From: Sulfurimonas sp.
Lineage (GTDB): Bacteria > Campylobacterota > Campylobacteria > Campylobacterales > Sulfurimonadaceae
NCBI GenBank assembly: GCA_027011725.1
Contig: JALUZQ010000059.1
Location: 1-11,875, forward strand
Direction of reading: 5' to 3'
Length of the DNA: 11,875 nucleotides
The notes below the pieces were generated by a model. That model ran no database searches. It was given only the letters and a program-made list of their open reading frames with translations, and was not told the origin of the DNA. The translations under genes and the position numbers were made by a program. Shown one piece after another: positions 5,876-7,969 of the stretch (positions within the stretch are counted from its first letter, which is position 1; the number at the start of each line of letters is the position of its first letter).

Positions 5876-5925
5876 AAGATATTGTAATTACTTAAAGATT
5901 AAACATAAATTAAAGCTTAGTTAGG

Positions 5926-5931
5926 TACAAT
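5926..5931 (+). promoter_or_regulatory. Probable -10 box of the rplU-rpmA transcript
   Basis: TACAAT at 5926-5931 within TTAGGTACAATTCC is a good match to a sigma-70 -10 box. It lies 48 bases before the rplU start, in an AT-rich spacer after ridA. No -35 box stands out, as is common in this phylum. Transcription would begin near 5938, leaving a leader of about 42 bases. Confidence 0.5.
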
Positions 5932-5941
5932 TCCGAACTTT

Positions 5942-5972
5942 TTGTAGAAATACAACCTAAAAATATTTAAGG
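5942..5972 (+). promoter_or_regulatory. rplU leader hairpin and weak structure over the ribosome binding site
   Basis: TTGTA (5942-5946) pairs with TACAA (5951-5955) around a GAAA tetraloop. Directly after it, CCTAAA (5956-5961) can pair, with one bulged base, with TTTAAGG (5966-5972), which contains the AAGG ribosome binding site. The first hairpin is perfect but short. The second is weak and is listed because a strong, perfect version of the same pairing occurs before rpmA. Regulation of L21/L27 by such leaders is an inference here. Confidence 0.35.
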
Positions 5973-5979
5973 ACCATAG

Positions 5980-6288
5980 ATGTACGCAATTATTAAAAAT
6001 GGTGGTAAGCAGTATAAAGTTCAAGAGGGTGATGTATTATCTTTAGATAAAATGTCTCTTGAGCCAGAAGCTACTATCGAAATCAAAGAAGTTCTAGCAG
6101 TAAATGCTGGCGAACTTAAAATGGGAGCTCCATACGTAGATGGTGCTGTTGTTACTGCTGAAGTTATCAGCGAAGGTCGTGACAAGAAAGTTATCACTTT
6201 CAAGAAACGTCGTCGTAAAGACTCTAAAGTAAAACGTGGTTTTAGAAGAGATTATACTCGTGTTCGTATCACGAAAATAGCTGCATAA
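5980..6288 (+). CDS. rplU: 50S ribosomal protein L21
   Basis: L21 binds 23S rRNA and is one of the primary assembly proteins of the large subunit. The 102-residue protein opens with [20 protein letters not shown], the L21 signature, and ends in the basic block [27 protein letters not shown] typical of the family. Length is normal (E. coli 103). AAGGA at 5969-5973 lies seven bases (counting from 5973) before the ATG. It is followed by rpmA after an unusually long and structured 160-base spacer. Codon use is biased as expected for a highly expressed gene. Confidence 0.98.
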
Positions 6289-6315
6289 GTTATAAAATAA
6301 GTTTATTGACTAAAA

Positions 6316-6390
6316 GCGACTAGTCGCGCGAGCTTTCTGCTGAAGAAAACTTAGCGTTAGCGTAGCGAAAGGGACTTTGTTCCTTTCGCG
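6316..6390 (+). repeat. GC-rich palindromic intergenic element, REP-like
   Basis: This 75-base block is about 52 percent GC, well above its AT-rich flanks. In order it holds: a perfect 12-base palindrome, GCGACTAGTCGC (6316-6327); a hairpin AGCTTTCT/AGAAAACT with one mismatch and a five-base loop (6331-6351); three TAGCG units (6352-6356, 6358-6362, 6363-6367); and an 11-pair hairpin GCGAAAGGGAC/GTTCCTTTCGC with a TTT loop and one G-T pair (6365-6389). GTAG sits at 6362-6365, right at the base of the last hairpin, as in REP elements recognised by RAYT transposases. There is no T run after it, so a terminator is unlikely. The structure is seen; membership of a dispersed repeat family is inferred and needs other copies in the genome. 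Confidence 0.5.
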
Positions 6391-6407
6391 TAATAAAATA
6401 AATAAGA

Positions 6408-6441
6408 GGTTCCCTTAAAATTGGGAACCAATTTTAAGGAG
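6408..6441 (+). promoter_or_regulatory. Two interleaved, mutually exclusive hairpins at the rpmA ribosome binding site
   Basis: Hairpin A pairs GGTTCCC (6408-6414) with GGGAACC (6423-6429) around an eight-base loop. Hairpin B pairs CCTTAAAATT (6413-6422) with AATTTTAAGG (6430-6439) around a seven-base loop. Both are perfect. The loop of A is the left arm of B and the right arm of A is the loop of B, so the full stems cannot coexist; the order a-b-a'-b' is that of an H-type pseudoknot with no linker bases. Stem B contains AAGG of the rpmA Shine-Dalgarno AAGGAG (6436-6441) and would hide it. Stem A leaves it free. The repeats are seen directly; a switching role is inferred. Confidence 0.7.
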
Positions 6442-6448
6442 ATTTGAG

Positions 6449-6706
6449 ATGGCACATAAGAAAGGTCAAGGTAGTACACAGAATAATCGTGATTCGGCTG
6501 GTAGAAGACTCGGTGTGAAGAAATTTGGTGGTGAATCAGTAATCGCTGGTAACATCATTATCCGTCAACGTGGAACAAAAGTTCACCCAGGTAAAAATGT
6601 TGGTATGGGAAAAGACCATACAATTTTTGCTTTAGTAGATGGTACTGTTGCGTTTGAAAGAAAAGATAAAAAACGTCAACAAGTTTCAATTATACCTGCT
6701 GCATAA
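6449..6706 (+). CDS. rpmA: 50S ribosomal protein L27
   Basis: L27 reaches with its N-terminal tail into the peptidyl-transferase centre and helps place tRNA substrates. The 85-residue protein starts [22 protein letters not shown], with the typical unprocessed tail; it lacks the cleavable N-terminal extension seen in Firmicutes. [24 protein letters not shown] is the family core. Length is normal (E. coli 85). AAGGAG at 6436-6441 lies seven bases before the ATG and is embedded in the interleaved hairpins described separately, so initiation may be controlled there. A hairpin terminator follows the stop codon. Confidence 0.98.
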
Positions 6707-6715
6707 TTCTACAAC

Positions 6716-6750
6716 TGTTTAGGCTCATATGCCTAAACAACTCTTTCTTT
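6716..6750 (+). terminator. Rho-independent terminator after rpmA
   Basis: TGTTTAGGC (6716-6724) pairs perfectly with GCCTAAACA (6731-6739) around a TCATAT loop, followed by the T-rich stretch ACTCTTTCTTT. It begins ten bases after the rpmA stop. The T run is interrupted by C, so efficiency may be moderate. Confidence 0.75.
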
Positions 6751-6804
6751 CGGATTTTTCCAAACAAAAACAAAACTTTTAAATGTTTAACAATATAACT
6801 ATTT

Positions 6805-6810
6805 TATAAT
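6805..6810 (+). promoter_or_regulatory. Probable -10 box of the obg operon
   Basis: A consensus TATAAT at 6805-6810, inside ATTTTATAATAGTC, lies after the rpmA terminator and 58 bases before obg. The upstream region is T- and A-rich without a clear -35 box, as usual in Campylobacterota. It would drive obg-proB-fmt-birA-parA-parB. AAGGA at 6857-6861 is the obg ribosome binding site. Confidence 0.6.
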
Positions 6811-6868
6811 AGTCTATTTTTAAATATTTATGCTTTCATAAATTGAAGCAAAAACCAAGGATAAAATA

Positions 6869-7969
6869 ATGTTTACAGATAGTGTCGAATTAACAGTCTC
6901 ATCAGGAAAGGGTGGACCAGGATGTGTGGCATTTCGTCGCGAAAAATTTGTACTCAATGGTGGTCCAAACGGTGGAGATGGCGGAAAAGGTGGAGACATC
7001 TGGTTTAAGTGTGATAACAATACCCACACGCTTTCTCATTTTCAAAGAAAAATGCACATCAAAGCAGACAACGGTCGTCCGGGTGAAGGCTCAAACTGCA
7101 CTGGAAAATCGGGTGCAAAGAAAGTAATAGTTGTTCCACCTGGAACACAAATAGTGGACAATGAAACAGGCGAACTTCTTCTTGATATGCTTGAACACGG
7201 ACAAGAGGTAAAGTTTCTTGAAGGTGGAAAAGGCGGACTTGGAAATACGCACTTTAAATCACCGACAAATCAAAGACCTACTTATGCACAGCCTGGGGAA
7301 AAAGGTGAGACAAGAAGCATTAAGCTTGACTTGAAACTTATTGCCGATGTTGGCTTGGTAGGTTTTCCCAATGTTGGAAAATCAACACTTATCTCAACCG
7401 TCTCAAATGCAAGACCTGAAATAGCAAACTACGAGTTTACAACGCTGACTCCAAAGCTTGGACAGGTGAACATCGGAGATTATGAGTCATTTGTTATGGC
7501 TGACATTCCGGGTATAATCGGTGGAGCACATGAAGGAAAAGGGCTTGGCATCAAGTTCCTTCGCCATATTGAGAGAACAAAAACACTTCTTTTTATGATT
7601 GACCTTGCTTCATATCGCGACCTGAAAGAGCAGATAGAAGTACTACAAAATGAAGTGGCATCTTTTTCTGAAAAACTCGGAACATCGAGATATGCTATTG
7701 CTTTAACTCGTGTTGACATAGTGCCGCCTGAAGAGTTAGAAGAGAAAGTGAACTCATTTATAGAGATGTTAGGACTTGCTCCAACAAAAGGAAGTGAGTT
7801 TGATTTTGACAGAGAATTGCCATACTTTATTCAAGAAACGTCAGATGAGAGTCTAGGGTATGAGAAAGAGAAACCATACTTTATCGTGCCAATATCTTCT
7901 GCAACGAATAAAAATATAGAGCCTCTCAAATATGCACTCTTTAACTTAGTTCAAGAGAGTAGAAAATAA
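6869..7969 (+). CDS. obgE: GTPase Obg/CgtA, ribosome assembly
   Basis: Obg is an essential GTPase that binds 50S precursors and links ribosome maturation to cell state. The 366 residues show the glycine-rich Obg domain (about 1-158, with [13 protein letters not shown] at 31-43 and the GGKGGLGN block near 119-126). The G domain follows: P-loop GFPNVGKS at 165-172, TTLTP near 191-195, DIPG at 212-215, G4 as TRVD at 280-283, and SSA at 343-345. G4 is normally NKxD, so Thr-Arg replaces Asn-Lys. Between G4 and G5 lies an extra segment of about 30 residues ([20 protein letters not shown]). The protein ends soon after G5, so the C-terminal OCT or acidic tail of other Obg proteins is missing. Placement after rplU-rpmA is the common bacterial order and fits its work on the 50S subunit. 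Confidence 0.96.

Follow-up and report, generated by a model that had tools for sequence, protein, structure and literature searches.

Genomic context of the rpmA feature

The window, that is, the whole 11,875-nt stretch of DNA analysed here, belongs to a Sulfurimonas sp. genome (G000; GCA_027011725.1, contig JALUZQ010000059.1) available as a fragmented assembly of 1.42 Mb in 279 contigs, 68% complete. Its plus strand carries rplU, encoding ribosomal protein L21 (5980..6288; NCBIfam TIGR00061, 128.5 bits), as the gene upstream of rpmA, encoding ribosomal protein L27 (6449..6706; NCBIfam TIGR00062, 135.7 bits); obg, named by NCBIfam, lies at 6869-7969. The rpmA start codon, an ATG at 6449, is preceded on the same strand by the Shine-Dalgarno sequence AAGGAG (6436..6441), recognised in the sequence itself, and no sigma-70-like promoter site was found in the rplU-rpmA spacer (6289-6448). 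Within this spacer, also on the plus strand, lies a structured RNA element (6311..6441), which consists of a 5' module and a 3' switch module and is delimited by the full-length match of a covariance model, R3, described below.

Competing stems at the rpmA Shine-Dalgarno site

The 3' end of the element contains two inverted repeats of the plus strand, both recovered by an inverted-repeat search. Stem A (GGTTCCC/GGGAACC, 6408-6414 with 6423-6429), also evaluated by fold energies, is perfect over 7/7 pairs, as the preliminary description of this DNA had reported. The second perfect repeat of that description is present where it was placed, but is longer than the 10 pairs claimed: stem B (CCTTAAAATTGG/CCAATTTTAAGG, 6413-6424 with 6428-6439), for which covariation was additionally found, comprises 12/12 pairs closed by a 3-base loop. 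Since the stems share positions 6413-6414, 6423-6424 and 6428-6429, they are mutually exclusive. Stem B pairs the AAGG of the rpmA Shine-Dalgarno sequence, and stem A represents the fold without that hold. A full H-type pseudoknot of the a-b-a'-b' arrangement was rejected, as no linker bases would remain; a partial one may form at rpmA.

The predicted energies of the two folds in the window 40-mer are about equal (stem A -13.5 vs stem B -13.8 kcal/mol), and at 37, 25 and 10 °C, compared with an RNA thermometer in mind, both are predicted to shift together, with B slightly favoured. A third helix on the plus strand (6431-6438/6443-6450), compatible with stem A and covering part of the Shine-Dalgarno site together with the start codon, is predicted in the minimum-energy folds of a 63-nt stretch and of an A-constrained 83-nt stretch. 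Because this helix covers the start codon, the A state of the window copy opens only partly, the predicted chance of AAGG being unpaired amounting to 0.40 with stem A and 0.00 with stem B; the earlier statement that the Shine-Dalgarno sequence is paired in one fold and free in the other thus stands for the B fold and is reduced to partial opening for the A fold. The suggestion that such repeats are unlikely by chance agrees with the shuffling results: the predicted fold of the 63-nt stretch has z = -3.5, 0/200 dinucleotide shuffles being equally stable, and 0/5000 mononucleotide shuffles of the 40-mer, its last four bases fixed, offered both folds at -10 kcal/mol or below.

The proposed switch at rpmA across the genus

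The genus set comprised 135 genomes, rpmA being found in 123; one genome (G048) carries two rpmA loci, on C29 and C37. After the start-less fragments L205 and L206 were dropped, 124 rpmA loci with a start codon were analysed. The rplU-rpmA spacer, measurable in 123 cases, was 40 nt or shorter in 94, between 41 and 65 nt in none, and longer in 29. The switch was present at 28/124 loci, including L171, where it is degraded, and L006, whose spacer is cut by a contig end; two loci retained a remnant, namely the 5' part of the element without the switch, and the other 94 had neither, their spacers being plain and no longer than 40 nt. On the rplU-rpmA tree of 121 loci, presence was patchy, requiring 17 parsimony changes vs 19 to 28 with shuffled labels.

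Stem B was assessed on an ungapped alignment of 27 rpmA copies (A1; 23 distinct), which left out L171 and the remnants L132 and L202. In this set 93.8% of stem B cells were paired and three pairs displayed double changes; three such pairs were reached in 41/500 shuffles, the paired share and the covariation score in 0/500. The internal pair 16-34 was unpaired in 12/23 distinct copies. Stem A is shifted in register by one base between the CCC/GGG and CCT/AGG classes of rpmA copies, with pairing kept, and because this shift precludes counting on alignment A1, stem A was tested through energies and arm swaps on the 23 distinct copies. Stems A and B averaged -10.4 and -9.8 kcal/mol, respectively, with energies correlated at 0.56 and lying within 2 kcal/mol of each other in 12/23 copies; swapping arms between copies brought the averages to -8.6 for A and -7.8 for B. 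Stem B is weak in some rpmA copies (L017, -2.6; L207, -4.2; L022, -4.7 kcal/mol).

With downstream sequence included, AAGG was predicted to be unpaired more often under stem A than under stem B in 27/27 rpmA copies, the mean unpaired value being 0.86 vs 0.02. The compensatory change in both stems that the preliminary description had proposed to look for among relatives is retained in the rpmA copies of the genus. Its proposal of a translational switch at rpmA survives as two exclusive folds, one masking the Shine-Dalgarno sequence and both kept by compensation, and loses its specificity for L27. Loss in relatives had been named there as evidence against the proposal, and the 94/124 loci lacking the element partly bear this out as regards an essential regulator of rpmA.

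A dispersed element of about 131 nt

R1, a covariance model of the 40-nt switch, gave matches in 109/135 genus genomes (E <= 0.1). Most of the 40 R1 matches examined away from rpmA end an element of about 130 nt, the 5' part of which has diverged in a few copies, L252, L271 and L278 among them. The R3 model was built from 19 copies, none of them at rpmA, and finds the window copy in full length (model positions 1-132; 117.1 bits, E 1.6e-26 in its own genome); the window copy is hence a member of a dispersed family recognised by a model to which no rpmA copy contributed. Matches to R3 were obtained in 127/135 genus genomes (E <= 1e-3), with three in the window's own genome and, under laxer scoring, 67 in G107, 53 in G010 and 25 in G133. 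Across the order, 143/398 genomes from 28/87 genera carried matches (E <= 1e-4), and in a phylum sample 55/298 genomes did, all 55 in the same order, the share of the sample lying outside that order not being given. Among 22 places examined, mostly in other genera, several from the same family terminate in a switch of this kind, and most from outside it do not. In another family, L375:883-930 and L376:801-848 (minus strand) display terminal hairpins of a similar interleaved plan with a different sequence (GGGTTCCC..GGGAACCC in L375), and no start codon was found behind either.

The element is ordered as P1, P2 (the loop of which pairs upstream), P3, P4, an A-rich linker and the switch, and all of the following coordinates refer to the plus strand of the window copy. 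P1 is a hairpin (GCGACTAGTCGC, 6316..6327), in which pairs 6-17 and 7-16 covary in the family alignment A4 and 86% of cells are paired. P2 forms a mini-pseudoknot (6331..6347), also identified by covariation, in which AGC at 6331-6333 pairs with the loop GCT at 6339-6341, crossing the helix TTCT/AGAA at 6335-6338/6344-6347. P3 is the short hairpin GC(GUUA)GC (6354..6361), with pair 45-50 changing between CG (69), UA (26) and UG (7) in 104 copies (E 0.05), and P4 (GCGAAAGGGAC..GTTCCTTTCGC, 6365..6389) is an inverted repeat bearing the strongest covariation of the element. The P3 loop of L242, L247, L248 and L253 accommodates a further nested hairpin, conserved in sequence and about 26 nt long, and the P4 loop of L246 and L273 holds a longer insert.

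A search of window positions 5900-6900 against Rfam returned three chance matches (E >= 0.94, far below gathering scores), none of which overlapped 6311-6441, and 12 loci with element copies gave no match to Rfam 15 at E <= 0.5. No description of the element was found in the literature searched, a coverage from which subscription journals were mostly absent. The family of about 131 nt is thus apparently undescribed so far.

Evidence favouring selection on a sense-strand RNA

Alignment A4 contained 106 distinct copies and a structure of 34 pairs. Paired cells reached 97.6%, compared with 81% in shuffled and 42-50% in slid controls, 0/500 shuffles being as high, and 27 of the 34 pairs exhibited double changes; as the alignment was fitted to the model, these counts lean towards the model structure. 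Covariation was tested against a custom tree-based null with 40 simulated alignments, rather than with R-scape, and was significant in P1, P2, P3, P4 and stem B. Support was weaker for pair 8-15 of P1 (E 0.28) and not significant for pair 39-47 (E 3). The pseudoknot pair 21-31 (window 6331/6341), which crosses P2, also covaries, being GC in 61, AU in 34 and GU in 3 of 98 copies.

Paired columns held 121 G-U vs 24 A-C cells overall, 73 vs 3 in P4 and 13 vs 2 in stem B, with P1 as an exception (12 of each), and the plain MAFFT alignment A3 held 13 G-U and no A-C in P4. This excess of G-U over A-C favours sense RNA over double-stranded DNA as the selected form, so that the sequence comparison favours an element selected as a sense-strand RNA.

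Placement and downstream genes

A set of 97 switch copies from 100 loci was chosen rather than drawn at random, combining the best matches with a richer sampling of G107, G010 and G133. Within this chosen set, 95/97 copies lie directly before a start codon and in sense to it. In 93/97, an ORF of at least 50 codons begins -1 to +10 nt past the element, mostly at +5 to +8, with ATG in 82 cases, TTG in 7 and GTG in 4. Two further copies precede L32 genes, one of 49 codons (L293) and one with the same initial residues (L302); of the remaining two, one stands before a shorter ORF (L258) and one before a second element copy (L251). The Shine-Dalgarno end of these copies is partly a matter of construction, because R1 ends on AAGGAG, but this does not apply to the start codon behind it. 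The upstream ORF, assigned by a crude rule, could be classified for 93 copies, lying on the same strand in 83 and on the opposite strand in 10. In G133, where 24 of the 25 listed matches were inspected by eye, 14 had the switch, in sense to a start codon in 14/14; some of the ten without it stood before starts and others did not.

The 92 downstream proteins fell into 52 groups, 19 of which had more than one member. An NCBIfam match was obtained for 18/20 of those scanned, above the curated cut-off for L7/L12, L9, L19, L32, DnaK, GroEL, DapB, LuxS, adenylate kinase, NusB, HypA, lumazine synthase, HemE and a Rid protein, and below it for NifU-like, omega, ApbC-like and RluA-like proteins. As the named genes share no common pathway, they suggest no ligand.

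The proposed switch away from rpmA

At most other genes the competing helix is formed by an upstream strand. This helix, A', is predicted to take a C of the CCUU anti-Shine-Dalgarno strand in 87/89 distinct copies (constrained minimum-energy fold), and the arm position that is usually mismatched in stem B pairs in A' (GC 31, UA 5, AU 5, CG 1), which suggests that A' has been selected in its own right. Native A' averages -7.6 kcal/mol, compared with -5.4 for arms taken from copies with different arms and -2.6 for shuffled ones, and is at least as stable as the swapped arms in 4272/5516 comparisons. It is weak (-1.0 to -2.3 kcal/mol) in L274, L270, L299, L307 and L279.

Without downstream sequence, the non-rpmA copies average -7.6 for A' vs -5.0 kcal/mol for B, with 23/89 within 2 kcal/mol and a correlation of 0.05; given this imbalance, many copies may just stay open. 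Adding downstream sequence brings the two states to averages of -9.6 and -9.7 kcal/mol, and AAGG is then predicted to be less often paired in the A state in 95/97 non-rpmA copies (mean unpaired 0.68 vs 0.08). Comparison and prediction thus both recover an anti-sequestor helix (A or A') and a sequestor helix (B) over the Shine-Dalgarno site. The loop GGAAC of the rpmA-type stem A occurs in 0/97 copies elsewhere; rpmA is a rewired member of the family, its competing strand relocated from upstream into the loop of stem B.

Origin, tandem units and mobility

Among 76 copies, similarity averaged 0.70 between orthologous copies of different genomes (79 pairs), 0.61 within genomes (116 pairs) and 0.62 between unrelated copies. 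Copies within a genome are no closer than unrelated ones, which indicates no recent burst, and orthologues are the most alike, so that the copies appear mostly old and inherited.

Tandem arrays of 90-nt and of about 130-nt units occur; switchless 5' modules also exist, including in tandem arrays, and some of them stand before no gene. In G010, the 5' module is repeated five times in tandem as near-identical units of 90 nt, of which the first lacks P1, at L352:1181-1665 (C9, minus strand) between nusG and rplK, as identified by eye; the opposite strand contains a repetitive 149-aa ORF, which could be misannotated as a gene. At L352:2535-2655 of the same genome, the 5' module stands directly before a tRNA-like sequence (by eye), and a similar match in G133 (L345) is placed likewise. 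The window's own genome has a 5' module without the switch at L209:975-1060 (C29), antisense to frr and pyrE (by eye), and a switchless match in G133 (L347) has flanks resembling those of L209. In G285 (C1), head-to-head pairs of 5'-module matches with identical score are located at 762748-762956, 1641286-1641494, 1817645-1817853 and 2223003-2223211.

The PF01797 transposase was detected in 72/135 genus genomes and was not found in G004, G005, G013, G014, G015, G018 and G021, each with 10-20 element matches; no element was found at 20 PF01797 loci. REP/RAYT mobility as a present driver was rejected on these two grounds. A single query copy (L264) gave no match in plasmid and phage collections.

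Interpretation and alternative explanations

The odds slightly favour the explanation that the family is a dispersed cis-acting structured RNA with a two-state switch at the ribosome-binding site, of which the rpmA feature is the 3' end. The element, its fold, the competing helices, the sense RNA form and the position before start codons are borne out by comparison of sequences. Lying mostly between co-directional genes, the element would supply the Shine-Dalgarno sequence of the downstream gene. Pairing of the CCUU strand with the AAGG of that sequence in stem B would keep translation low; capture of the same strand by the competing helix, A' at most genes and A at rpmA, would leave the site open and translation higher. 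The two folds may interconvert, or be chosen during transcription in cells, and the choice would set translation of the downstream gene, with the pseudoknotted 5' module (P1-P4) possibly influencing it or protecting the RNA. In a broader version, which we entertain only tentatively, dozens of housekeeping genes would have in their leaders members of one compact, pseudoknotted, Campylobacterales-wide RNA family, which would serve them as a shared sensor or protector and, in the genus, would drive a common bistable ribosome-binding-site switch, rewired at rpmA.

The element could alternatively be a slowly moving or once mobile repeat, comparable to BOX or REP, with no regulatory role; its own ribosome-binding site and an open A' would make insertion harmless, and stem B would be a by-product. 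Its dispersed and modular nature, the tandem units, the occasional antisense 5' module, the patchiness at rpmA and the usually stronger A' in short stretches would all fit, yet we consider this unlikely, if far from negligible, in view of the greater likeness of orthologous than of within-genome copies, the compensatory changes retained in stem B, the sense placement directly before start codons in the chosen set, the lack of a plasmid or phage match for the one copy compared, and, for the transposase family tested, the failure to find it in element-rich genomes or to find elements at its loci. A similar degree of doubt, or slightly more, attaches to a role in mRNA stability or processing, whereby the 5' module would stop a ribonuclease between operon genes, so that the halves decay or are expressed separately, and the 3' module would merely keep the new 5' end translatable. 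Such a role would suit the same-strand ORF upstream of 83/93 classifiable copies, the compact covarying fold with its pseudoknot pair and the stand-alone tandem array between nusG and rplK, but by itself leaves two competing helices over the Shine-Dalgarno sequence unexplained.

Autoregulation by L27 or L21, with the product binding the rpmA leader and shifting it from A to B, was the reading suggested in the preliminary description. The location over the rpmA Shine-Dalgarno site and a form of stem A peculiar to rpmA speak for it, but the element is also found ahead of other genes, with 52 groups of downstream proteins in all, and is missing from most rpmA loci; as the element is not confined to rpmA, this was rejected as the main reading and is now very improbable. 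Least credible of all is a DNA operator or a minus-strand terminator appearing as palindromes: a terminator-like pattern does exist on the minus strand (6429-6408), but the predominance of G-U over A-C, overall and in P4 and stem B, points to sense RNA.

On either view, a structured RNA for which Rfam has no family is present in dozens of gene leaders, among them those of ribosomal-protein, chaperone and Fe-S assembly genes. A working switch would place the translation of many core genes in ecologically important sulfur oxidisers under a single RNA element, a control that genes would gain by acquiring that element; if the shared-sensor reading is true, a dispersed RNA instead of a protein would wire together a translation regulon. 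Even a merely tolerated repeat would be unusual in being so closely fitted to ribosome-binding sites.

Comparison with known systems

Translational riboswitches such as preQ1 and SAM-II act by sequestration of the Shine-Dalgarno sequence. The element resembles them in its architecture, with a pseudoknotted, structured 5' region and, downstream of it, anti-sequestor and sequestor helices that cover the Shine-Dalgarno site, and differs in its many copies before unrelated genes and in a 5' module that also occurs alone or in tandem. Autogenous ribosomal-protein leaders, as described for L20 in the available sections of PMC6097659, likewise place a structure over the ribosome-binding site of a ribosomal-protein gene, but the element, with its 52 downstream protein groups, is not specific to ribosomal proteins.

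Among dispersed repeats, the REPs treated in the available sections of PMC3733652 are palindromes of 20-40 bp, and the main text of that article does not name Sulfurimonas, Sulfurospirillum, Arcobacter, Campylobacter or Helicobacter. As in the GTAG-tagged REPs of that account, P4 starts on the final G of a GTAG tetranucleotide, and its central pair is non-standard in about a third of the element copies; unlike REPs, the element is a 131-nt multi-helix RNA. The BOX elements of Streptococcus pneumoniae, according to the available sections of PMC3049150, can be transcribed with neighbouring genes and have been termed parasitic. Judged against that account, BOX and the present element are both modular, dispersed and reiterated in tandem, but nearly all switch copies of the latter are in sense and end on a ribosome-binding site just before a start codon, and its copies have in common a covarying RNA fold that includes a pseudoknot pair.
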